DNA of 21,756 bases from a virus: IMG/VR virus record IMGVR_UViG_3300003702_000494, positions 1-21,756 of that record; one strand, written 5' to 3'. The stretch's first letter is position 1. The number at the start of each line of letters is the position of its first letter. The notes under the pieces are model-generated. The model ran no database searches. It saw only the letters and a list, made by a program, of their open reading frames with translations, and was not told where the DNA came from. A program made the position numbers and the translations under genes. Positions 1,185-17,934 of the stretch are shown here, piece after piece.

Positions 1185-1456
1185 TGGACTTAACAGAGTT
1201 TGTAAATCGTTTCGGCCTTCCAGTCGTAATAGCGGGAGGCCTTGGTTATTTCATTTATTTTATTTGGAAGTATGTCACCGCACAGATTAAAGTTAAACTT
1301 GGAGAAACCTTTACTGTATTGGTTAAGTTGATAGACCGAGTTAGAATGCTAGATAATGACCTTATTAGATTAGATCAGAAATTAAATGTTTTTATAGAAC
1401 TGTCAGAAGAACAAAAGTTAAAGAAGTTGGAGGAAATAGAACATGAAAAAAAGTAA
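1184..1456 (+). CDS. Single-TM coiled-coil protein, paralogue of the previous gene
   Basis: The 90-residue protein begins MDLTEFVNRFGLPVVIAGG, with one TM helix at about residues 11-31. A charged amphipathic helix follows, with DRVRMLDNDLIRLDQKL at about 51-67, and the tail is Lys/Glu-rich. Both this and the preceding gene keep the D.RVR..(D/N)ND.IR.D spacing after one TM, so they share ancestry and may form a hetero-oligomer in the inner membrane. The gene overlaps csgF by 14 bases and supplies the csgF ribosome binding site (GGAGG at 1429-1433). Function is unknown; a holin-like role or a curli-export accessory role are both guesses. Confidence 0.7.
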   Translation: MDLTEFVNRFGLPVVIAGGLGYFIYFIWKYVTAQIKVKLGETFTVLVKLIDRVRMLDNDLIRLDQKLNVFIELSEEQKLKKLEEIEHEKK

Positions 1457-1955
1457 TCTTTTATTATTGGCAGCTCTTGCTGTATGTGGAGTTTCCTCTG
1501 CATTTGCAGGCCAAATAAATTTTAAATTTCATTCACCTAGTTTTAGTGGTATAGGAACCAGCTCACATTATTTAACGATAGAGAACTTAGAAACAACACG
1601 CAAACAGGCCATCAAGAAAAAGGCCGAGGATGAGGCTAAGGCATTAGAATTGGAATTGGAATATGAATTAGCGAACACCCCCATAGAATTATTCCGTAAG
1701 AATTTAGAGTCACGATTCTACACCGCATTGGCAAAGAACATCATAGATAATGTGTTTGGTACAGACGGCACAAGACAAGATGGCGGCACAACGGTAATAG
1801 ATGGCTACACGATTACTTGGGCATCTACTGGTACAAACAACGATGCAGATGGTACAACACTGACCATCACAGATGCTAATGGTAATACTATCTATGATTA
1901 TACTATGCCTTTTCAAGAGAAGGAAGGTTGGGCTTGGGGAGATGAAGAAGGATGA
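1443..1955 (+). CDS. csgF: CsgF-like curli assembly protein
   Basis: CsgF is a secreted subunit that caps the CsgG pore and couples curli subunit export to nucleation at the cell surface. The 170-residue product has a clear signal peptide (MKKSNLLLLAALAVCGVSSA, cleavage near FA-G at residue 22). The conserved start of mature CsgF follows: GQINFKFHSPSFSGIGTSS, compared with GTMTFQFRNPNFGG in E. coli. The middle is a charged helix (about 50-80). The C-terminal half has the dG..I.w....tltitDa.GnTi pattern of the family. At 170 residues it is longer than E. coli CsgF (138), mainly because of the Lys/Glu helix. GGAGG sits nine bases before the ATG. The stop overlaps csgG as ATGA. Confidence 0.88.
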   Translation: MKKSNLLLLAALAVCGVSSAFAGQINFKFHSPSFSGIGTSSHYLTIENLETTRKQAIKKKAEDEAKALELELEYELANTPIELFRKNLESRFYTALAKNIIDNVFGTDGTRQDGGTTVIDGYTITWASTGTNNDADGTTLTITDANGNTIYDYTMPFQEKEGWAWGDEEG

Positions 1956-2968
1956 TACATAAACTGATAGCAATAGTAACTGTTGCTTTATTAGTATCGG
2001 GTTGTGCTTCTACTTTGGCTAGAACTATGAAGAACTTGGACCAAGTTCCAAGAATTCAAACAATGAATCATAGTATTCTAAAAGACCTAAGAGAACCAGA
2101 CCAGAATCCTATTATACTAGCAGTGTATGGTTTCACAGACCAGACCGGGCAACAGAAACCCGGCGGGGCCTATGCTGAGATGTCCAAGGCAGTAACACAA
2201 GGCTCACAACATTTACTCATCAAGGCTTTATTAGATGCCGGTGATGGTAAATGGTTTAGAGTATTAGAAAGAGACACACTACAAAGTCTATTACAAGAAC
2301 GTAAACTGATTAGAACCACAAGACAAATACAACACGGCGACAAGGCCAAACCTATCGGACCTATGTTGTATGCTGGTGCTTATCTTACAGGTGCCATCAC
2401 TGGGTATGATACTAACATACTGACCGGTGGTATTGGCGCTCGTTACTTAGGCATTGGTGCTAATGCAGAGTATCGTTTAGATGTGGTGACTGTAGTATTA
2501 AAACTTATCAATGTCACAAGTGGTGAAGTAGAACTGACCGCTATCGTAGAAAAGAGTATCGCTAGTGCCGGCATTCACGGTGATGTATTCCGATATCTTG
2601 ATACAGCTACTAAGTTGATAGAGGCAGAGGCAGGCGCAGCGACTAATGAACCAGTAGGCTATGCTGTAAGAAAAGCTATTGAAAAGGGAGTGGTTGAAAT
2701 AATTGTGATGGGTGAGGAGAAAGGACTTTGGAAGTATAAGTTTGATGCTGTGTTGGATACCGAACCCTTGGAAGATAATGTTGAGTGGGGATCTGTTGAG
2801 TTGTTTGAGTCGATAACAAGTGCTGGAGTTCCTGATAAAGTAAACCCCGAAGAGTTGAAAGAAATTTATGATAGTACAGATTTAGGACTTAAAATTCTTA
2901 AAGAGGTAGCGGATGAAGAAACTGATAAGCTGCATGATACTATGGTTAATTTTAGTCCCCACCAGTAA
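1952..2968 (+). CDS. csgG: CsgG-like outer-membrane curli secretion lipoprotein
   Basis: CsgG forms the nonameric outer-membrane channel of type VIII (curli) secretion. The product has a lipoprotein signal with lipobox LVSGC (Cys18). Family blocks appear in order: DQTGQQKP, WFRVLERDTLQSLLQERKLI, TGAITGYDTNILTGGIGARY followed by LGIGANAEYRLD, LINVTSGEV, VFRYLD and AATNEPVGYAVRKAIEKGV. These align closely with E. coli CsgG (IIGYESNVKSGGVGARYFGI, TSNEP). At 338 residues it exceeds the E. coli protein (277), through an acidic C-terminal extension of about 65 residues. The pore-constriction loop differs: E. coli YPASNF is here about GGAYAEM. The start overlaps csgF by four bases, and the last 56 bases overlap the curlin-like gene. 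Confidence 0.93.
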   Translation: MIHKLIAIVTVALLVSGCASTLARTMKNLDQVPRIQTMNHSILKDLREPDQNPIILAVYGFTDQTGQQKPGGAYAEMSKAVTQGSQHLLIKALLDAGDGKWFRVLERDTLQSLLQERKLIRTTRQIQHGDKAKPIGPMLYAGAYLTGAITGYDTNILTGGIGARYLGIGANAEYRLDVVTVVLKLINVTSGEVELTAIVEKSIASAGIHGDVFRYLDTATKLIEAEAGAATNEPVGYAVRKAIEKGVVEIIVMGEEKGLWKYKFDAVLDTEPLEDNVEWGSVELFESITSAGVPDKVNPEELKEIYDSTDLGLKILKEVADEETDKLHDTMVNFSPHQ

Positions 2969-4010
2969 TGCACACAATTTACTGTGGGGCGATTTTGATG
3001 ATCTCACCAACAGTACTATAATTATCAAACAGGCCTCTCCCCATACAGAAATGTATGGAACATCGTCTGGTAATGATTTTGTCATATCAGGCAACAATGT
3101 AATAGTAGATATTACTCAAGAGCAGTCAGGAACTATTAGTTTTATTAAAGGTAATTTTCAATGTAGTAATTGTTCTTATACTGCCTACATAGGAGGTAGC
3201 AATAATGGCTCTTACATTAAGACAACGTATCTACATACCACTTCTAGTTATCATCACCTTGATGTCGATATTGCTGGAACTGGCTCTAGTAATGTGGTAG
3301 TGGTAACTGATGCGGCCCACGATCATAGTAATACATCAGTTGAAGTTGATATTGTAGGCGGGTCTAATAACACAATAAGAAATAGAATTTACGGTACACG
3401 CCAGACAATGAAAACCTACATTGATGGTAGTAGTAATACCGTCCGTCTCCAGAATGAAGGTACAGGTGACTACACTACAGGACAGACCGAACTTGCCAAT
3501 TTTTCGGACATTACGGAATATAATAACTACTTACATATAACAGGTAGTAGTAATCAAGTTCAAGTTAAGGCAGTTAATACAGGTAGAAGTAATATTATTA
3601 TTACTGGAGATTCTAATAAGATATGTAAGTATGGTACTAGCTGTACCGATGCCAATTATATGGCACACATTTATGGGTTGATGTCTATAGATGTGAATGG
3701 CGACTCCAATTCAATAGGTGTTTATTCCATTACAACAGGTGATGAAATAAAAATAGACCTTGATGGAGATGGACATACTATTGATGTCCACCAAGAAGGC
3801 ACAAGCAACTATGCTGGCCTGAAAATATATGGCGAAGGCCTTTACAAAGTTACATACGACCTCAAGCAACGTGGGAATGATACCCATTCGGGCTGTATAA
3901 ACATTGCTGATTTGGGCGCTAATACTACATACACTTATGACACTAATACATCAAGTCATAGAAATATAACAAATCATACTGCCAATGCAACGGGGTGTCT
4001 AACAAATTGA
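2913..4010 (+). CDS. Secreted curlin-like repeat protein, candidate CsgG substrate
   Basis: The product is 365 residues with a signal peptide (MKKLISCMILWLILVPTSNA, mature from His21). The mature part is Asn/Ser/Thr/Gly-rich. It has irregular curlin-like units of the form G(S/D)(S/N)N.(I/V)....: GGSNNTIRNR, GSSNTVRLQNEGTG, GSSNQVQVKAVNTG, GDSNSIGVYSITTG and GHTIDVHQEGTSN. Such units stack as beta-solenoid or amyloid repeats in CsgA/CsgB. Six cysteines sit in CSNC (near residue 84), CKYGTSC, and the C-terminal pair SGC and TGC. The start is placed at 2913, inside csgG, because AGAGG lies about six bases upstream and the signal peptide begins there. It may be the exported subunit or nucleator. 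Repeats are more degenerate than in enterobacterial CsgA. Confidence 0.72.
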   Translation: MKKLISCMILWLILVPTSNAHNLLWGDFDDLTNSTIIIKQASPHTEMYGTSSGNDFVISGNNVIVDITQEQSGTISFIKGNFQCSNCSYTAYIGGSNNGSYIKTTYLHTTSSYHHLDVDIAGTGSSNVVVVTDAAHDHSNTSVEVDIVGGSNNTIRNRIYGTRQTMKTYIDGSSNTVRLQNEGTGDYTTGQTELANFSDITEYNNYLHITGSSNQVQVKAVNTGRSNIIITGDSNKICKYGTSCTDANYMAHIYGLMSIDVNGDSNSIGVYSITTGDEIKIDLDGDGHTIDVHQEGTSNYAGLKIYGEGLYKVTYDLKQRGNDTHSGCINIADLGANTTYTYDTNTSSHRNITNHTANATGCLTN

Positions 4011-6271
4011 TTCGCAATTTATTATGGGTACTCTTGCTTACCCCAACATTGGTTTTAGCAGGTGTAGGTAAGGTTGAACACAACGAAGGCCGCACCTGGA
4101 ATGAGAGATCAAATAAGACACAAAATATAGCTGAAGGCTATGATGTGTTGATGGATGATTTTTACCAGACAGGTGAAGATGGAAAGATTGGTATTATTTT
4201 TGAAGATGAAACATCGGTAACAGTCATCGAAAATTCTGAATTAATGATTGATGATTTTGTATATGATCCTGCAAATAATATTGGAAAGTTAGCCTTCAAT
4301 GTGACAGTTGGATCGTTTCGTTATGTTTCTGGCGCTATTGGAGCAAATAATGAACAGCGTGTAAAAATCACAACCCCCTCTGCTACAATAACTGTCCGTG
4401 GTACTACTCTTACAGGTAATGTTACACCTGAGGGAGTAACTACAGTGACGCTGTTGCGTGATAGAGATGGCGGCCTTGGTAAAGTTCAAGTCGCTAATAG
4501 GGCGGGAACAGTTTTATTAACCCAACCCTTTCACACAGTAACAGTATTGTCGCCGACGATTGCACCTCCCTTACCTATTATACCTTCTCCTTCTGCATTA
4601 GCTGGGATGAATTTGGTTTTAGAACCTATAATGAATGAACCTGTAGTCAGGAGAGAAGTCCGGAGAGAAGATCGTCAAGATACCGATGAGGAAGATGAAG
4701 CGGAAGAAGTGGAGGAAGATCCTGAGGACAAAGAATCTGAGGATAAAGAATCTGAGGTAGAAGAAGATGGACAAGAGAAAGAGGAAACTGATGGAGATAA
4801 AGAAACAGAAGGAGAAGAAACCACCGACGATAAAGGAGATGTGGAAGATGACGAAGGAGAAGTCGCTGAAGAGGATAGAGAAGGTGGAGACCAAACTGAA
4901 GAAGATAAAGGACAAGATGATGTTGAAATTACGGATAAGGAAGTTGAAGAAATTAGAGAAGAAACGTCAGAAGACGTATCAGATGAGTCCGATGGGCCAC
5001 AAGATTCCGGACCAGAAGAAATCACAGATGAACCAATTGAAGAAGTATCCGATGGAGATACGTCAGGAGAAATTGACGAAGTGGGCTCGGAAACGGACGA
5101 AGTTAGAGAAGTTGGGCCGGAGATAGTAGAAAGTGAGCCTGTGTTTGAAGAACCTGTTGAGACAGAACCATCAGAACCTGTCTTTGATGAGCCTACATTT
5201 GAAGAACCCACCTTCAATGAAGATACCTTGATGACTGATTCAAATATGTTTGATGATACTTCCGTATTTGAAAGTGATATGCCAATGAACGATACAGGTC
5301 CGGTGATGGATACTGGACCTGTATTTGAAACAGAAACAGTTGAGGTTGAAGTAGAGGTTATGGAAGTTGAGGTAGAAACTGTAGAAACTTGGGACGAGCC
5401 CGAAGTTGTAGAGGTTGTTGAAGTGTTTGATGAACCAGAAACAACAACACCCACATATGAATCCACAACTCCATATGTGCCTGTTACAACCACAACAGAG
5501 GACACATTCTATTATGAAGAAACAGAAACTACCACCTTTGCCGATATCTTTGATACGAACTTGACAGATTACACTGATTATGCTGATGAGACAGATACAA
5601 CATCAACCGATGACTGGATGGATGATACCACTACAACAGACACAACAGCTGATGACGAGGAATATTGGTGGGAAGAGGAAGAGGAAGAGGTAGACATTAC
5701 TATTTACGGAACTTATATAGGGTATTCTGAAACTACTTACGGCACCACGACTGCCGTTAGCTCATCAGAAGAAACATCTACCGTAACAAGTGGCACGGCA
5801 ACTACCGGCACCGTGGTATCAACAACAGATGGCACAGTCAGCTACACACCTGCCGGCACCCAAACTACCATTACAACCACAACTACATATAATCAGACAC
5901 AAACAGATACTGATTACATTTATTATTGGTATGACTCCTCATCTGCTGGCACCAATGTTTCTACAACCACCTTGGTCACAACAGGCACATCAACATCAAC
6001 TAGTAATACCGACGGCATACCAACAACGATATACATCACAACCTCCGACAATACTTATTACAACAACACTGCTTGTAGCACCAGTAACAGTACCTGTAAT
6101 GTGTATGAGCTCAATTATGGTAATGATAAAATAGATATTCATATCAACCCCAGCAACACTAGGTTGGTCATAGCAGGCAAGAAGAATAGTAGTGGCACGA
6201 TGGAGTCCCAAATAATAGGTACTACTTCAGGTCAGTCTAACAATATCGTTATCATCCAATACCAGCCGTGA
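3995..6271 (+). CDS. FecR-domain protein with long acidic and Thr-rich tail
   Basis: The start is a GTG at 3995, 16 bases inside the curlin-like gene; it yields a signal peptide (SNKLIRNLLWVLLLTPTLVLA). Residues about 45-170 form a FecR domain, a periplasmic signalling module: the lines DGKIGIIFEDETSVTVIENS and ITTPSATITVRGTTLTG are typical, the latter containing the VRGT hallmark. A very acidic stretch (about 220-420, Glu/Asp with few basic residues) follows, then Thr/Tyr/Asp-rich sequence with WWEEEEEEVD. The C-terminus holds two Cys (ACSTSNSTC) and units such as GQSNNIVIIQYQP that echo curlin repeats. FecR proteins are often encoded beside CHASE2 cyclases, as here (GTGA overlap). It may scaffold, display or sense the polymer. 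The low-complexity tail is not assignable. Confidence 0.78.
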   Translation: MSNKLIRNLLWVLLLTPTLVLAGVGKVEHNEGRTWNERSNKTQNIAEGYDVLMDDFYQTGEDGKIGIIFEDETSVTVIENSELMIDDFVYDPANNIGKLAFNVTVGSFRYVSGAIGANNEQRVKITTPSATITVRGTTLTGNVTPEGVTTVTLLRDRDGGLGKVQVANRAGTVLLTQPFHTVTVLSPTIAPPLPIIPSPSALAGMNLVLEPIMNEPVVRREVRREDRQDTDEEDEAEEVEEDPEDKESEDKESEVEEDGQEKEETDGDKETEGEETTDDKGDVEDDEGEVAEEDREGGDQTEEDKGQDDVEITDKEVEEIREETSEDVSDESDGPQDSGPEEITDEPIEEVSDGDTSGEIDEVGSETDEVREVGPEIVESEPVFEEPVETEPSEPVFDEPTFEEPTFNEDTLMTDSNMFDDTSVFESDMPMNDTGPVMDTGPVFETETVEVEVEVMEVEVETVETWDEPEVVEVVEVFDEPETTTPTYESTTPYVPVTTTTEDTFYYEETETTTFADIFDTNLTDYTDYADETDTTSTDDWMDDTTTTDTTADDEEYWWEEEEEEVDITIYGTYIGYSETTYGTTTAVSSSEETSTVTSGTATTGTVVSTTDGTVSYTPAGTQTTITTTTTYNQTQTDTDYIYYWYDSSSAGTNVSTTTLVTTGTSTSTSNTDGIPTTIYITTSDNTYYNNTACSTSNSTCNVYELNYGNDKIDIHINPSNTRLVIAGKKNSSGTMESQIIGTTSGQSNNIVIIQYQP

Positions 6272-8316
6272 CTAAGATACTAACATCATCCTGGCTGGTA
6301 TTGATTACATTATTGATACTTACTTCTATTCGTTATTGGGATCCTATTCCAGTACAAACCTTACGCCTAAAAAACTTTGACGGTTATCAAGCCCTACTTA
6401 ATAAAACGGTATCGGATAAAATTGTTCTTTATGATGTAGGTGAGAAAGAACTAAAGGAACATGGTCAATGGCCGTGGAAAAGAACAGTCATTGCACAGTT
6501 AGTTGCCGATCTATATAATGCTGGTGCTCGTCTTGTAGTTCTGAACATTCTATTCGCCGAAGAGGATCGTTTGGGTGGTGATGATGACTTAGTAGGTGTT
6601 CTGCAGCAAGTGCCCGTGGTGGGCGTCCAAGCCGCCTCTAGTCGTGCTATAGAAGGACAAGCTACACCTAGAGGCTTATCGTACAGTGGTAATCCTTTCC
6701 CCTATCTATACACATATAAGGGTGCAGTAAGAAACATCAAGCCCATTGCAGATGCACTCGCAGGCATAGGTATGGTAAGTACTGTGCCTGAGATAGATGG
6801 TGTGGTTCGTAGAGTGCCATTGTTTGTCCGTGTCGGCGAAAAGGTTATCTACCCATCACTACCGATGGAGATACTCCGAGTCCTTGTAGGTAGTAAATCA
6901 GCACAGATAAAGACAGAGGCCGCAGGCATCAGTAAGGTGAGAGTAAGAGGGTTCCCTATAGTCAATACAGATTCACATGCTCGTATATGGATTGACTATT
7001 CAACCAACATAGAAAGAAACGTAGATGTGAAGGGTAAGATAGTTCTAGTCGGGTTGACAGCTGAAGGATTGACACAGACAGTACCCACACCATTCGGGCC
7101 TAAAGATATACACGAGGTCAATGCCAAGACATTATCAACTATACTAACAGGCACATCTATACAACGATATGATTTTGCCAACTTGGCAGAGTTGTTATTG
7201 ATATTAGGGATCGGTATTCTTATTATAGTTATTGCACCAAGAGTGAGTGTGAAGTGGACTATTCCTGTGATGTTGTTGTTTGTTAGTGGGACAGCATATG
7301 GTGGCTTTTTTGCGTTTGTAGAAAGAAATGAGCTGTGGGATGTAAGTTATCCGTTGTTTGCTATATTGATACTCTATCTACAAGTGACATTCAATAACTT
7401 TGCTCGTGAATTTAGATTGAAACAACAGATAAAGAAACAGTTTGGTACATACTTATCACCTGCAATGGTAGTGATCTTACAAAAAAATCCAGAGCTGTTG
7501 AAGTTAGGAGGTGAGACTAAAGAACTGTCTATTTTATTTTGTGATATAAGAGGGTTCACACCTATCAGTGAACAGTACAAGACAGACCCACAAGGTTTAA
7601 CAAAACTTATCAATCGGTTTCTTACTCCCATGACAAATTTGATAATGAATAATCAAGGCACAATAGATAAATATATGGGAGACTGTATAATGGCTTTTTG
7701 GAATGCTCCTGTGGGAGTGATAGACCATAAGAAACGAGCAGTAAGCTCAGCTTTAGCTATGGTCGAAGGTTTAAAGAAACTTAATACAGAACTAGAAGAA
7801 GAAAATCAACTGCCTATTACTGTTGGTATAGGCATCAACACAGGTGAGGTCGTCGTGGGAAACATGGGAAGTACTAGTAGATTTGATTATTCAATTTTAG
7901 GAGATGCTGCTAATTTAGCTTCACGATTAGAAGGACAATCAAAAAGTTATGGTGTAACAATTATTTTGGGTGAAGAAACTGCTAAAGATATAGATGATGA
8001 ATATTTTTGTGTAGAACTTGATTCTATTGCAGTTAAAGGAAAGAAAGATGCGGTTCGTATCTATACAGCATTAAGTACGCAAAAATATATGTGGCATAAT
8101 ACTAATTGGGTTCACCTAGAACAACAACACGAAAAATTTTTAGTTTTTTATCGTAATCAAAAATGGATATTGGCAGAGAAGTGGGCTCAAGATTTGGAGA
8201 CAGCTTGGCCTATCATGTCTGTCTATTATTCTATAATGCTTGAGCGTATAGAGAAGTTTAAGAGTAATCCTCCTGGCAATGATTGGGATGGAGTATATCA
8301 TGCAACAACAAAATAA
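6268..8316 (+). CDS. CHASE2-domain class III adenylate cyclase
   Basis: This inner-membrane cyclase should make cAMP from ATP in response to a periplasmic signal. Its 682 residues start at a GTG that overlaps the FecR gene by four bases. TM1 is at about residues 6-23, and the periplasmic CHASE2 domain spans about 30-300 (QWPWKRTVIAQLVADLYNAG, then IGMVSTVPEIDGVVRRVP). Three TMs follow at about 307-375, then a cytoplasmic catalytic domain at about 415-600. Catalytic residues are all visible: metal ligands Asp426 (LFCDIRGFT) and Asp472 (KYMGDCIMAF), adenine-selecting Lys468 and Asp540 (RFDYSILGD), and transition-state Asn549 and Arg553 (NLASR). That points to ATP rather than GTP. Such enzymes are bacterial; one in a phage is unusual. 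Whether cAMP is the true product is inferred. Confidence 0.93.
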   Translation: MTKILTSSWLVLITLLILTSIRYWDPIPVQTLRLKNFDGYQALLNKTVSDKIVLYDVGEKELKEHGQWPWKRTVIAQLVADLYNAGARLVVLNILFAEEDRLGGDDDLVGVLQQVPVVGVQAASSRAIEGQATPRGLSYSGNPFPYLYTYKGAVRNIKPIADALAGIGMVSTVPEIDGVVRRVPLFVRVGEKVIYPSLPMEILRVLVGSKSAQIKTEAAGISKVRVRGFPIVNTDSHARIWIDYSTNIERNVDVKGKIVLVGLTAEGLTQTVPTPFGPKDIHEVNAKTLSTILTGTSIQRYDFANLAELLLILGIGILIIVIAPRVSVKWTIPVMLLFVSGTAYGGFFAFVERNELWDVSYPLFAILILYLQVTFNNFAREFRLKQQIKKQFGTYLSPAMVVILQKNPELLKLGGETKELSILFCDIRGFTPISEQYKTDPQGLTKLINRFLTPMTNLIMNNQGTIDKYMGDCIMAFWNAPVGVIDHKKRAVSSALAMVEGLKKLNTELEEENQLPITVGIGINTGEVVVGNMGSTSRFDYSILGDAANLASRLEGQSKSYGVTIILGEETAKDIDDEYFCVELDSIAVKGKKDAVRIYTALSTQKYMWHNTNWVHLEQQHEKFLVFYRNQKWILAEKWAQDLETAWPIMSVYYSIMLERIEKFKSNPPGNDWDGVYHATTK

Positions 8317-8373
8317 CTAAATAATAGAATTGTTATGGGAAGTATAATGTGGTAGATGATAGGAGAAAATATC

Positions 8374-8811
8374 ATGTTTACATTAGAAAGTACTTTGCCA
8401 TGGAAGAAGCAATCGGGCTTCACTTTGATAGAATTGATGATAGTTGTAGCTATCATAGGCATTCTTGCTGCGATAGCGGTGCCACAGTATAACACATACA
8501 TTACCAAATCCAAAGCATCAGAAGGATTAACATTAGCTAATGGGGCTAAACTAGCCGTTGCAGAATATCATTCGATGAATGGTGAAATGCCAGTTAATAA
8601 TGAACAAGCAGGTTGGGAATCTGTATCTGGAACTAGTGTAGGATCTGTTAATATAGGCGTTGATGGTGTTGTTACCGTAATATACAACGATAAATCTGGG
8701 TCTGTACTAAGAGGAAAAACATTAGAACTAACACCTACTGCTGCTGGTGCTATCAATTGGGCTTGTAAGGCCACGGATATCTCAAAGTATGTTAAGGGCT
8801 GTACAGAATAA
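8374..8811 (+). CDS. Type IV major-pilin-like prepilin
   Basis: The ATG at 8374 is chosen because AGGAGA (8361-8366) lies seven bases upstream; an in-frame ATG at 8356 lies before that site and would add only six residues. The leader of 15 residues ends in KKQSG, and prepilin peptidase would cut before [20 protein letters not shown], a canonical type IV pilin helix with Glu5. The globular part is short (145 residues in all), and two cysteines ([15 protein letters not shown]) close the usual C-terminal disulfide loop. It would be inserted in the host inner membrane and could join host pili or pseudopili, since no pilus machinery is seen here. The gene is preceded by a 57-base gap and is likely expressed separately from the cyclase operon. 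Confidence 0.9.
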
Positions 8812-12885: not shown

Positions 12886-14037
12886 ATGTCAAGATATAGA
12901 AAAACTATGGCCGATGCCTATGCAGAAGTAATTGAGCATAAAGGTACAGAGCCCCACGAACATCCACACGAACCTACAGACCCAGATATTCCTGAGTCAG
13001 GAACTGATCCAGAATTTATTATTGAAGATGGTATGGAAGAGTTGCATAAGTTAATTAGTCAAGGTAAAAGTGCGGAAGAAATTGCAAAGATAATGAACTT
13101 AGATATGGATACTATTAGAGCTTTAATGTCTAATGATGTAGATGAAGTAGCACCACCAGGATGGGGCCATACAAAGGCAGAGAAAGAGAAAACTAAGCCG
13201 AATAAACCTAAGTCAAAGATAGGTGGCACGGCACACGAGTTTCAAAAAGATTTAGACTCAGGTAAGTTTAAAGGTCTACCTGGAGACAAAACATACAAAG
13301 ATAAGAAGGCGAGTATGTTTAAATTGATGTGGTCGATGAAAAATAAAGGTGACAAGCCACATTATAAACCAGGTGTAAAAGATAAACTCAAAAAGAAGTA
13401 TAAAGGTCCAGAAGGACAGAATGAAGAAAAGGAAGAGGCTCGGCTGTTTACAAATGTTCCTAACTCAGTTGTAAAGAAAGCCAACAAAGAAGCTGATAAA
13501 ATTAAGAAACAATTAGAGAAAAAAGTGTTGGGTAAGTCAACGCAGAATACTACCTCAGGTGCCGATATTACTAGTAAGAATGATGTTTATGAGGGGAGTG
13601 TTAAAGCCAAGAAGGCACGTAAGTTTAAAGTTACAACTCCAGGTCAAGATCGAAATTATGAAAAGTTATCAGCTGAGCGTATGTTTAAGGCCTATGAAGC
13701 TTCTTTTAGTGTTCCGAATGATGCAGGTGGGTGGCCAACAGGAGATACGCCACCAGTTCCCGATGAAGCTTATCAGCAAGCGACTACTAAGAACAAGATA
13801 AAGACGAAGAAACAATTTGCACAGAATTGGGCAAACGCTGTGGCTAAGAAACGAGTACGAAAAGAAGAAGTTGAAATACAAATGCGAGAAGGTAAAGACG
13901 ATTGGGATTTGATTATGAAAAATGCAAGAGCTTATTGGACTATGAAAAACGCCAAACACTTTGTAGATAATATGCCATCCTTAACGTCGCAACAGAAAAA
14001 GGATGCCATGAAGGCAGCTAAGAAGTGGCTAAGGTGA
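12886..14037 (+). CDS. Lys-rich phage protein, unknown
   Basis: The 383-residue product starts MSRYRKTMADAYAEVIE and then has a His/Pro/acid-rich segment (residues 20-50). A short helix pair (SAEEIAKIMNLDMDTIRALM, about 63-82) has the look of a small helix-turn-helix. The middle is strongly basic (about 95-250), with KASMFKLMWSMKNKG at about 142-156. A helical C-terminal domain ends DAMKAAKKWLR. No signal peptide or TM is visible. I do not recognise a family. The composition and the MFKLMWSMKNKG-type motif are common in phage virion- or DNA-associated proteins, but nothing here proves a role. A GATAAATA box 22 bases upstream hints at late expression. Confidence 0.75.
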   Translation: MSRYRKTMADAYAEVIEHKGTEPHEHPHEPTDPDIPESGTDPEFIIEDGMEELHKLISQGKSAEEIAKIMNLDMDTIRALMSNDVDEVAPPGWGHTKAEKEKTKPNKPKSKIGGTAHEFQKDLDSGKFKGLPGDKTYKDKKASMFKLMWSMKNKGDKPHYKPGVKDKLKKKYKGPEGQNEEKEEARLFTNVPNSVVKKANKEADKIKKQLEKKVLGKSTQNTTSGADITSKNDVYEGSVKAKKARKFKVTTPGQDRNYEKLSAERMFKAYEASFSVPNDAGGWPTGDTPPVPDEAYQQATTKNKIKTKKQFAQNWANAVAKKRVRKEEVEIQMREGKDDWDLIMKNARAYWTMKNAKHFVDNMPSLTSQQKKDAMKAAKKWLR

Positions 14038-14041
14038 ATAC

Positions 14042-14524
14042 GTGGAACGATATAAAAATGTTTTATTACGGTGGTGGTTTCTGTTTTGTGTGCAGGGATC
14101 AATAGGGATTGTAGCATATTACTTTGGGTTTTTTCACCATCTAGTAGAAAAAGATCCAACTCGTTTAGGTTTTATAATACTAACTATTCTTATACTAACT
14201 ACTCTATGGTTAGGTAAAAAAGTATATTCGTTTAGAAAAGATATACCAGCTAAACCAATTAAAGAACTTGCTGTTGGTTGGTTTATTGCAGAAACTTGTT
14301 TAGTGTTAGGACTTGTTGGTACTGTGACTGGATTTATATTAATGCTTAGTGGTGCATTTATAGATTTAGATGTTAGTGATGTAGTGTCTATACAAGCTGC
14401 CTTGGTTAAAATGTCTTTAGGTATGTCTACTGCTCTTTATACTACTCTTATGGGATTGTTATGTTCCCTTGCTATTAAGGTCCAACTTGTCAATATAGAA
14501 AGACAACTTGAAAAATGCATATAG
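14042..14524 (+). CDS. MotA/TolQ/ExbB-like proton channel subunit
   Basis: The start is a GTG five bases after AAGGTGA, whose TGA is the previous stop. The 160-residue protein has TM helices at about residues 12-30, 42-58, 82-104 and 124-147. The third and fourth carry the family's channel-lining pattern: ETCLVLGLVGTVTGFILML (about 84-102) and LGMSTALYTTLMGLLCSLA (about 126-144). In ExbB, TolQ and MotA these two helices, with Thr residues, form the inner ring around the partner's Asp helix and convert proton flow to motion. It is shorter than TolQ (230) and lacks the large cytoplasmic loop. The partner gene starts inside its last ten bases. Confidence 0.82.
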   Translation: MERYKNVLLRWWFLFCVQGSIGIVAYYFGFFHHLVEKDPTRLGFIILTILILTTLWLGKKVYSFRKDIPAKPIKELAVGWFIAETCLVLGLVGTVTGFILMLSGAFIDLDVSDVVSIQAALVKMSLGMSTALYTTLMGLLCSLAIKVQLVNIERQLEKCI

Positions 14525-15213
14525 GTAGATATGTTTCTAGTACCGGGTTTACAGATTTATTATTTAATATAGTAGTAGGTCTGGCCTTTATGTTTGTCTT
14601 GGCTTTTATTCTTATTAATCCGATTACGAAAAAACATGACGTAGAAGAAAAATCTGATTATCTTATAATTTTAACTTGGGATGATAAGTCAAAAGATGAT
14701 ATAGATATTTGGGTTCAAGATCCTCTTTCTAATATAGTTTCATTTAGAAATAGAGGCACAGGGTTTATGCATTTAGACCGAGATGATTTAGGAACACGAA
14801 ATGATATCATTTATTTACCAGATGGAACTAGAAAGATCATTGAAAGAAACCGAGAAGTAGTTTCTTTGCGAGGAACAGTAGAAGGTGAGTATCTAGTTAA
14901 TGCTCATATTTATGATACTACATCTATTGAAAATGATTATATTGATGGTAAAAATTATCCTAAGAAACTTGATATAAACATAAAGGTGGAGTTAATACAA
15001 GTAAATCCTTATAAGTTGGTTACGTTTACAAAAATGCTTGGGAAACATCGAGGTCAAGAGTTTACAGCGTTTAGGTTTACATTAGATGCGAAAGGAAAGA
15101 TTACAAAGTTGAGTAATGAACGTAAATCTATTATTGCAACTAGAACGTATAGTAATTTAAGTGGGGGAGAAGCAACAGAACAAGCTAAGATATTCTGGGG
15201 GGAAGCCTGGTAA
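14515..15213 (+). CDS. TolR/ExbD-like partner with large periplasmic domain
   Basis: This 232-residue protein has one N-terminal TM (about residues 12-34), preceded by Asp14 in TGFTDLLFNIVVGLAFMFVL. The Asp followed by a hydrophobic helix ending in F.F is the signature of the ExbD/TolR/MotB proton-relay helix. After the membrane is a domain with DDIDIWVQDPLSN and FMHLDRDDLG (about 62-95), an Asp-rich, possibly calcium-binding beta layout. The C-terminal part is basic and stranded. No OmpA-like peptidoglycan motif was seen. It overlaps the channel gene by ten bases and touches the next gene (TAATG), so the three form one operon. The pairing supports a true ExbB/ExbD-like complex; the load on the motor is unknown. 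Confidence 0.75.
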   Translation: MHIGRYVSSTGFTDLLFNIVVGLAFMFVLAFILINPITKKHDVEEKSDYLIILTWDDKSKDDIDIWVQDPLSNIVSFRNRGTGFMHLDRDDLGTRNDIIYLPDGTRKIIERNREVVSLRGTVEGEYLVNAHIYDTTSIENDYIDGKNYPKKLDINIKVELIQVNPYKLVTFTKMLGKHRGQEFTAFRFTLDAKGKITKLSNERKSIIATRTYSNLSGGEATEQAKIFWGEAW

Positions 15214-15695
15214 TGGAACAACTTGTTTATTTAAGTATTATTTTTATTGTCATGTTATGTTTGTGGACAATTATAGCCTACCCTAAGAATTATCTCTTTA
15301 AGGCTATTTTTATACCTTTGGTGTTAATAGTTTCGATATCAATAGGGGTGACATACAAGGCACTATTAGGTTATCCGACAGACAGTGAAGCGGGAGGGTA
15401 TCAAGTTTATCACTATTTTATACCAGATCAACAAAATAAAGTTATCTATGTTTTATTAACACGGGTGGGAGAAAGTAAACCTAGGCTATATGCTTATCCT
15501 TGGAATAAAGATTTGTTAGAGAGCCTTAAAAAGGCTGAAGAAAAACGAGGGCAAACCGTTAAGGTTGTTGGTGAATTTAGGAACCCTAAGAAAAAAGATG
15601 GAAAGTTATTGGATACAGGAAGAATGTTATTTTATATGTTACCTCCACAGGTTTGGTTACCTAAAACTAAAGATAATTCTGAAGAAGATCAGTAA
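15213..15695 (+). CDS. Two-TM protein, third member of the channel operon
   Basis: The 160-residue product has TM helices at about residues 4-22 and 29-48 with a short loop between. A soluble domain of about 110 residues follows: YQVYHYFIPDQQNKVIYVLL, then GESKPRLYAYPWNKDLLESL and a basic FRNPKKKDGK stretch. It starts in the stop codon of the TolR-like gene (TAATG), which argues for co-production with the channel pair. I do not recognise a family. With both termini on the same side, the soluble domain could sit in the cytoplasm, but the Lys residues leave orientation open. It ends nine bases before the next promoter. Confidence 0.7.
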   Translation: MEQLVYLSIIFIVMLCLWTIIAYPKNYLFKAIFIPLVLIVSISIGVTYKALLGYPTDSEAGGYQVYHYFIPDQQNKVIYVLLTRVGESKPRLYAYPWNKDLLESLKKAEEKRGQTVKVVGEFRNPKKKDGKLLDTGRMLFYMLPPQVWLPKTKDNSEEDQ

Positions 15696-15703
15696 AATAG
15701 TGC

Positions 15704-15732
15704 TTGACATGTTGTTAGTTTTGTTGTATAAT
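15704..15732 (+). promoter_or_regulatory. Perfect sigma70-type promoter upstream of the bS21 operon
   Basis: TTGACA (15704-15709) and TATAAT (15727-15732) are 17 bases apart, a full consensus match. The -35 box is preceded by AGTGC, as in the promoter at 19511. The likely start near 15739 gives a leader of about 23 bases with GGAG (15751-15754) seven bases before the ATG at 15762. It should drive the four-Cys, bS21, kdsA, tRNA and RNase H genes early in infection. Confidence 0.87.
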
Positions 15733-16461: not shown

Positions 16462-16874
16462 AAGATAAAATGGCTAAGGTTCGGGCGGCCAAGAAGCCGG
16501 CTGAATATAAGAATATACATCCTGCCGTTAAAGATTTAGATGATGACCATCCGGCTAGTCTTAAAATTGTTAAAGAATGGGAACGTCACAATAGAACTTT
16601 AATAAAAGAGTTGAGATATAAATGGCGTAGAATGGAGAAAGGAAAAGAAAAGGATAAAGTACAAAGAGAAATAAGAAATCGTGAAGATTACCTTAATAGT
16701 ATTAAAACGTATTTAGGAACAGCAGTATGGCGTGATTTATTTTGGGGTAAGGATATGGAGAATAAAACACATTTTGTTTGTTTGGCTACGGCTTATGATG
16801 TTGACGGTATTCAGAAAAAAACTCCACGAACTCGATACACTAGAAGACTTTTTATAGAAGATAATGTGGTATGA
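16443..16874 (+). CDS. Conserved-looking basic phage protein, unknown
   Basis: The 143-residue product starts MADSYIEDKMAKVRAAKKPA. It has a DDDHPASLKIVKEWERHNRT block and a long charged helix (about 55-85, WRRMEKGKEKDKVQREIRNR), and ends with a strand-rich part (ENKTHFVCLATAYDVDG, then RTRYTRRLFIEDNVV). It is soluble with no signal peptide. The start overlaps the glutaredoxin-like gene by 19 bases and the end overlaps kdsA by 11, so it is translated as part of this operon. I do not recognise a domain. The basic helix could bind nucleic acid. Confidence 0.65.
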   Translation: MADSYIEDKMAKVRAAKKPAEYKNIHPAVKDLDDDHPASLKIVKEWERHNRTLIKELRYKWRRMEKGKEKDKVQREIRNREDYLNSIKTYLGTAVWRDLFWGKDMENKTHFVCLATAYDVDGIQKKTPRTRYTRRLFIEDNVV

Positions 16875-17934
16875 TAAGTTAAAAAATTCAAGGTTTAATT
16901 TAATAGCAGGACCTTGCGTATTAGAAAGCGAACAACACGCTTTTGATATGTCAGGTGCTATTAAAGATATTTGTAATGATTTAAATATAAATTTTATTTA
17001 TAAAACATCATTTGATAAAGCGAATAGAACTAGTAAAGATAGTTATAGAGGTGTCATTGGTGAAGTGAAAGTACATATGTACCGTGTAGAATTGGCTAAT
17101 GAAAGTTTTGGTAAGATTAAAAAACAAATTGGATGTGAAATACTAACAGATGTTCACGAAAGTTGGCAGCCCGTTCTTTTACCTACTATAGATATTTTTC
17201 AGATACCCGCTTTTCTATGTAGACAAACCGATTTGATAGTTGCATGTGCTGAAACAGGAAAGCCTACTAACATAAAGAAGGGACAGTTTACATCTCCTGA
17301 GTCTATGGTATGGGCTGTTGAAAAACATGGTGGGGATGTGATGTTGACTGAACGTGGAACATTTTTTGGTTATGGTAGACTAGTGGTAGATATGGCTGGG
17401 TTGATTGTAATGAGAAAATATGCTCCTGTGATATTTGATGCAACCCATAGTGTTCAACAGCCAACAGGCAAAACTACTAAAGGTAATCGACTTGTAGCAC
17501 CATTTTTAGCACGGGCCGCATTGGCAGTTGGGGTAGATGGTTTGTTTATGGAAGTGCATGATGATCCAGATAACGCTCCGTCTGATGGTCCGAATATGAT
17601 ACGATTAAAAGATTTACAAGGTATCTTAGAGACCTTATTAGAATATGCTACACTCACGAAACAGGCGGAACAAGGTTCTATTTTAGGTTCGCATTCTCCA
17701 TTCTATATGAATACTAACAGCAATTATATAGATGAGTATAGGAGACAAAAGCCTCTAGAAGAATATACGATAGAGGAATATAAGTTTGATCCACCAGAAA
17801 GCTTTACTAAAGATGCAGGTCATGTGGCCGGACAAGTTGAAGAAGATCATTCAAATGCCAGCTGGCATAGCCGCACCGGCGGCGGTGGCTTCGGTCCAAT
17901 CTTCGGACCCACAGACGAAACTAACGATGACTAG
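16864..17934 (+). CDS. kdsA: KDO-8-phosphate synthase, metal-dependent type, with extension
   Basis: KdsA joins phosphoenolpyruvate and arabinose 5-phosphate to make KDO-8-phosphate for lipopolysaccharide cores. Family blocks run in order: NLIAGPCVLESEQHAFDMSG, YKTSFDKANRTS, LTDVHESWQ, IPAFLCRQTDL, NIKKGQF, LTERGTFFGYGRLVVDM, FDATHSVQQP and FMEVHDDPDNAPSDGP. The metal ligands Cys18, His195, Glu230 and Asp241 are present (Aquifex: Cys11, His185, Glu222, Asp233), so this is the metal-requiring class; E. coli has Asn at the Cys site. At 356 residues it carries about 80 extra C-terminal residues, ending in a Gly-rich tail (RTGGGGFGPIFGPTDETND). No other KDO gene is near. The last stop base is the first base of the tRNA. 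Confidence 0.93.
   Translation: MWYDKLKNSRFNLIAGPCVLESEQHAFDMSGAIKDICNDLNINFIYKTSFDKANRTSKDSYRGVIGEVKVHMYRVELANESFGKIKKQIGCEILTDVHESWQPVLLPTIDIFQIPAFLCRQTDLIVACAETGKPTNIKKGQFTSPESMVWAVEKHGGDVMLTERGTFFGYGRLVVDMAGLIVMRKYAPVIFDATHSVQQPTGKTTKGNRLVAPFLARAALAVGVDGLFMEVHDDPDNAPSDGPNMIRLKDLQGILETLLEYATLTKQAEQGSILGSHSPFYMNTNSNYIDEYRRQKPLEEYTIEEYKFDPPESFTKDAGHVAGQVEEDHSNASWHSRTGGGGFGPIFGPTDETNDD

Follow-up and report, generated by a model that had tools for sequence, protein, structure and literature searches.

Proton-driven 5:2 motors have been described in flagella, in the Ton and Tol systems, in gliding and in Zorya. The phage locus described here, A-B-C, shares features with the MotA/TolQ/ExbB (PF01618) and ExbD/TolR/MotB proteins of such motors: A scores over the family cut-off and keeps the transmembrane (TM) motifs and threonines, and B, encoded directly after A, has one TM helix and an invariant Asp. 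It differs from ExbB/ExbD-type motors in that A is a short protein of four hydrophobic segments, B is TerD-like in its predicted fold and lacks a match to ExbD/TolR, and a two-TM protein, C, is constantly present. As in TonB-ExbB-ExbD and Tol-Pal, an inner-membrane channel is combined with an Asp-helix protein at the envelope, but no TonB or TolA was identified with A-B-C, and the additional gene of some chromosomal operons (D) appears to encode a lipoprotein. Zorya ZorAB has in common with the locus a MotA/ExbB-type channel, a phage-related setting and a weak profile similarity to A; however, A (160 amino acids) has no long ZorA tail, the B domain is modelled as TerD-like, and ZorC, ZorD and ZorE effectors were not identified. 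The TerD domain (PF02342) of tellurite-resistance and stress proteins resembles the predicted periplasmic fold of B (Z 11.9 to 3ibz), although the B domain sits behind a TM helix and shows no significant sequence or profile match to the family. The PQQ-dependent alcohol dehydrogenase system (PedABC, TIGR03861/03863-03866) co-occurs with chromosomal A-B-C, but its NCBIfam models match none of the three proteins.

The single report on phage ExbB or MotA found in the literature that we searched concerns an ExbB of deep-sea Lentisphaerae chronic phages, proposed as an auxiliary metabolic gene (PMC11361711). That ExbB stands alone, with polysaccharide genes, and a conserved A-B-C trio is not described there. 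In the same literature we found no description of the trio or of its predicted TerD-like outer domain, no record of its occurrence across phages or of its co-occurrence with PQQ genes, and no motor assigned to PQQ-dependent alcohol oxidation. The channel family itself is already known.

Organization of the locus

The locus lies in an IMG/VR virus record of 21,756 bases, the whole of which is called the window here. The window includes T4-like genes, for example RNase H. Its relevant features are the following.

12886-14037, + strand: upstream ORF, 383 amino acids, stopping 4 nt 5' of A
14042-14524, + strand: gene A, GTG start, 160 amino acids, MotA/TolQ/ExbB-family channel protein
14515-15213, + strand: gene B, 232 amino acids, Asp-helix partner, 10-nt overlap with A
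B residues about 43-210: periplasmic all-beta domain, as predicted in the AF2 model
15213-15695, + strand: gene C, 160 amino acids, two TM helices, 1-nt overlap with B (TAATG)
15704-15732, + strand: consensus sigma-70-type promoter (TTGACA, 17 nt, TATAAT), directly 3' of C, read from sequence

The ORF calls bear out an earlier note on this DNA, which had placed three overlapping genes end to end on one strand at 14042-15695. The upstream ORF is outside the conserved trio; a profile search with its product gave helix-turn-helix matches, all below threshold. The promoter probably serves the genes downstream of it and not the trio. Elsewhere in the window, 16864-17934 encodes a PF00793 (KdsA/DAHP-synthase-type) protein, perhaps an auxiliary gene for LPS sugars, and 1443-8811 holds genes for CsgF, CsgG, a curlin-repeat-like protein, a long FecR-domain protein, a CHASE2-cyclase and a type IV pilin-like protein. 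Relatives of the CHASE2-cyclase and FecR genes also occur in two other phage loci (L046 and L059).

Protein A is a member of the MotA/TolQ/ExbB family

Protein A matches PF01618 (MotA_ExbB) at 26.4 bits, above the Pfam cut-off of 22.9, which upholds the MotA/TolQ/ExbB-like channel proposed earlier. Chromosomal copies of A that adjoin B reach up to 43.5 bits. The A profile aligns with the ExbB/TolQ profile in hhalign (Prob 96%, E 2.3e-9), and a profile of 18 sequences, run against the PDB, hit the TM2-TM3 motif of MotA, TolQ, ExbB and ZorA structures (E 0.002-0.17). When window A was used in tblastn, no phage records were matched.

There are four hydrophobic segments (residues 7-25, 40-58, 86-104 and 132-150), as in most A proteins, and this count is MotA-like rather than ExbB-like. 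Chromosomal copies carry additional sequence between the second and third segments. The conserved TM motifs are GLVGTVTG (residues 90-97) and TALYTTLMG (residues 130-138). Among 141 A proteins, D38 and T135 are each kept in 140 and T134 in 129; G90, G93 and G138 are near-invariant, like D38 and T135. Residue 94 is Thr in 105 of the 141 and Lys in 33.

Protein B combines an Asp-bearing helix with a predicted TerD-like outer domain

Protein B has a single hydrophobic helix (residues 16-34) with Asp14 just before it. Its AF2 model (mean pLDDT 85.6) consists of a TM helix at residues 9-34 and an all-beta domain; rows from annotated phage records were left out of the AF2 alignments. Asp14 is invariant in an alignment of 83 sequences, as are W55, D62, D64, D90, D91 and E114. 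A single TM helix with an invariant Asp is a trait of ExbD/TolR/MotB-type stator partners, and in this layout the TolR/ExbD-like character given to B in the earlier note stands. The likeness does not extend to sequence, in which no significant profile match of B to ExbD/TolR appeared, nor to the periplasmic domain, which is TerD-like in the model. With E values up to 1 allowed, PF02472 (ExbD/TolR) matched neither window B nor any of the 18 aligned sequences, and hhalign of B against the ExbD profile was no better than a reversed control. No Pfam family matched B, and searches of B and C against Pfam and PHROG gave nothing convincing. A DUF2135 domain, considered for B, was rejected for want of a Pfam match.

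VIA-align comparison of the modelled outer domain found the TerD structures 3ibz (Z 11.9 over 140 residues), 2qng (Z 10.5) and 2qz7 (Z 10.3), followed by unrelated structures at Z 6.7 and below; Foldseek with the B model returned nothing at E below 0.001. Profile comparison of B with TerD was not significant (P 0.065; reversed control 0.21), and its best alignment, likewise not significant, puts W-D, DxD and H-x-D...G in register with the TerD motif. PF02342 (TerD) had no match in window B, and none at E up to 10 in three B-positive genomes (G001, G007 and G053). Because the profile comparison was not significant, we claim for the modelled outer domain a TerD-like fold and not membership of the TerD family. 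TerD has a known calcium site; by analogy, one might guess that the outer domain of B binds metal.

Protein C is a two-helix protein with a small domain predicted to lie outside

The hydrophobic helices of C, at residues 4-22 and 28-46, agree with the third, two-TM protein described earlier. The AF2 model of C (mean pLDDT 82.5) has two helices and a small mixed alpha/beta domain, for which the best match in a fold search reached only Z 6.9. Unfused C proteins match no Pfam family. Phage C proteins have on average 0.16 Lys and Arg residues in the N-terminal tail and 1.89 in the loop, and this charge distribution suggests an N-out/C-out topology with both ends in the periplasm.

The trio is widespread in phages

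Scans of IMG/VR with B, A and the B alignment as queries found 351 B relatives, and tblastn with B found 26 Rhizobium and Sinorhizobium phage records, in all of which the gene is annotated as hypothetical. The earlier statement that these are not standard phage genes holds in that the trio is unannotated, but such numbers show it to be widespread in marine phages and in rhizobiophages. The order A-B-C is present in 109 of 118 phage loci, window included, so the array is not chance; of the other nine, some are cut off by the end of the contig and the rest have C split or show an additional lysozyme hit. Phages RHph_N34, 16-3, RHph_N3_19, RHph_I1_18, P10VF and RHph_X2_25 have the same order. The surrounding genes vary while the trio persists, and no gene other than A, B and C is common to nearly all loci. 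The B tree contains deep phage groups. In three loci (L069, L070 and L077) B and C are separated by an inserted foreign gene, OMP-decarboxylase-like, with C retained. Genes for trypsin-like peptidases lie near the trio in three Rhizobium phages (L002:3244-4143, L003:8237-8929 and L006:3610-4257); in RHph_X2_25 such a gene is directly upstream of A.

We identified no TonB-like partner gene next to the phage trio and recognised no PQQ gene families among the annotated phage neighbours. In 12 of 72 phage loci, which belong to several deep B branches, a gene for SbmA/BacA (PF05992, E 3e-132) follows C at a distance of 10-1280 nt, and a Na/Pi cotransporter gene abuts C in L098 and L099. Genes for SbmA/BacA-like peptide transporters are common in marine phage contigs (L020, L021, L035, L072, L078, L084, L089, L108, L109, L110, L113, L117 and L242-L319), with 216 relatives found with or without A-B-C. 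The idea of SbmA as a constant partner is weakened because just 18 of the 80 phage SbmA loci include A-B-C; most A-B-C loci are without SbmA.

Chromosomal operons co-occur with PQQ-dependent alcohol oxidation

A scan of bacterial genomes found 344 B relatives. A, B and C occur together in 74 of the 80 chromosomal loci kept, which come from Alpha-, Beta- and Gammaproteobacteria; their host genomes also have separate ExbB and ExbD genes. The additional gene D follows C in 22 chromosomal loci. The four examples of its product that were inspected are probable lipoproteins, and D has a DUF3108-like match that is below threshold. Given that the trio is common to phages and bacterial operons, phages appear to have taken over an undescribed envelope machinery. 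Some chromosomal B relatives have no recognised A and C in the locus (L134, L175, L178, L186 and L197), which is possibly a different use of the B fold; L175 has two tandem B copies, and a substrate-binding-protein gene lies near some of these relatives.

The neighbours of the chromosomal trio include genes for PedC, PQQ_ABC_ATP, a PQQ beta-propeller protein, PQQ_ABC_bind, PQQ alcohol dehydrogenase, PedF, a SoxYZ-like carrier and PQQ_CXXCW. In Thiothrix, the PQQ_CXXCW gene lies immediately before A. Across 289 Alphaproteobacteria, TIGR03866 is present in 14 of 21 genomes with a strong B match and in 23 of the 268 others (p 1.7e-9, uncorrected for kinship). Among 200 Burkholderiales, five genomes carry B, and in four of them a gene for PQQ alcohol dehydrogenase lies 1.5 to 27 kb from it on one contig. 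In Methylomicrobium alcaliphilum, expression of the MotA/TolQ/ExbB genes MEALZ_3990/3991 falls when La replaces Ca (PMC6277846). This drop fits the PQQ link, provided that both genes belong to the A-B-C family.

A proposed proton motor as an auxiliary envelope module

We consider it probable that A and B form a proton-driven unit, and this is much more likely than any one use proposed for it. The observations behind a motor are the family of A, the conserved Asp and Thr, the fold and the synteny; from these we infer an A-B complex and its rotation. The phage trio would be a version of the chromosomal three-gene envelope motor. This motor would be proton-driven and of the 5:2 type, with A as the ring in the membrane and B as the axle that bears the Asp. 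Protons passing Asp14 and the Thr-lined A channel would move the TerD-like domain of B in the periplasm, with C as a putative periplasmic partner of that domain. In bacteria, the motor probably energises a step in the handling of substrates or metals in the periplasm or at the outer membrane, as suggested by the co-occurring PQQ genes and the occasional lipoprotein gene. In phages, it would most likely keep energised uptake or envelope work running during infection, and in some lineages it may work with the SbmA/BacA or Na/Pi transporters encoded right after C. The phage loci offer three leads that diverge, towards transport, lysis and defence, and we weighed them together with the chromosomal context. 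Taken as a whole, the proposal that phages carry a chromosomal envelope motor and use it in infected cells as an auxiliary module for envelope work or uptake is tentative, and we give it a little less than an even chance.

A bolder version is somewhat unlikely: that A-B-C(-D) is a separate motor branch with a metal-binding TerD-like outer domain, which would serve Ca- or lanthanide-linked quinoprotein alcohol oxidation in Proteobacteria and, long carried by marine and rhizobial phages, would steer the envelope energetics of infected cells.

Alternative functions

The trio could instead be a lysis or peptidoglycan module, in which the motor senses the proton gradient, or draws on it, to hold back, deliver or release a peptidoglycan hydrolase, so that the wall would be broken down when the gradient collapses as infection ends. 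A role in lysis had been suggested earlier and retains one indirect link: a GH24 lysozyme sequence continues the reading frame of C in a single clade. This arrangement occurs in 17 loci with 12 distinct domains (PF00959, E 3e-49, with an E-x8-D-x5-T triad), and the predicted topology of C would put the lysozyme domain in the periplasm. Eleven loci in which C runs in frame into the lysozyme are L008, L009, L010, L011, L014, L049, L053, L054, L056, L061 and L062. A lysozyme gene precedes the trio in Rhizobium phage X2_25, and in 7 of 69 loci, against about 1.4 expected, the late-promoter-like TATAAATA stands in the 250 nt before A. However, the lysozyme part retains its own ATG or GTG and a Shine-Dalgarno-like site, and may therefore be merely a neighbouring gene read in frame. 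This conserved internal start weakens the C-lysozyme fusion as a clear Rosetta stone, and because it is conserved, fused and free lysozyme may both be made from these loci. The arrangement is confined to one B clade, of which L051 and L059 are without a fusion; in N34 and P10VF the trio lies among replication genes, and the chromosomal operons are not lysis operons. We regard a lysis module as unlikely. In L051, a free GH24 lysozyme with an N-terminal hydrophobic helix (L051:7380-7913) is encoded 4.4 kb downstream of an unfused A-B-C, and is a possible SAR endolysin.

Superinfection exclusion or defence, with a complex that detects or blocks incoming phages at the envelope in the manner of Zorya ZorAB, is improbable; the earlier note had also raised the blocking of competing phages. 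A does match ZorA models and ZorA structures weakly, but its 17.5-20 bits against the models are far under cut-offs of 100-700 bits (17.5 against 500 for one model), and a protein of about 160 amino acids without a long cytoplasmic tail is unlike ZorA. The ter genes, whose products share the fold modelled for the B domain, have been linked to phage inhibition, and the trio occurs in temperate phage 16-3 as well as in T4-like phages; against this, the outer domain, in which no Pfam domain was found, looks TerD-like rather than peptidoglycan-binding in its model, no nuclease effector family is common to the loci, and the chromosomal copies co-occur with metabolic genes and not with defence genes.

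Still more doubtful is the idea that the trio has no motor function and acts as an ion channel or a proton leak, perhaps to tune the membrane potential of the host. It would agree with the channel helices and the Asp being the only demonstrably conserved parts and with no TonB, TolA or rotor partner being known, but the periplasmic domain of B is strongly conserved with invariant acidic residues and C is constantly present, which suggests that force or a conformational change is passed outwards.

Energising of the curli-like export genes of the window phage, also raised in the earlier note, is very improbable and was rejected for lack of co-occurrence with A-B-C across 72 phage loci: although CsgF, CsgG and curlin-like genes are in the same window, they lie about 10 kb from the trio, CsgG relatives are in only two of the 72 distinct loci (the window and L059), CsgF and curlin are in the window alone, and annotated curli genes are absent from the Rhizobium phage neighbourhoods.

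Implications

The presence of the trio among the hypothetical proteins of the cultured Rhizobium phages 16-3, P10VF and RHph_N34 makes concrete tests of an auxiliary envelope motor possible, and tests are also possible in bacteria with PQQ-dependent alcohol oxidation. If the proposal is true, A-B-C would be a further branch of 5:2 motors, found both in phages and in bacterial chromosomes and distinguished by an outer domain of its own and a third subunit that is always there, and phages would gain a handle on the envelope energy of their hosts.
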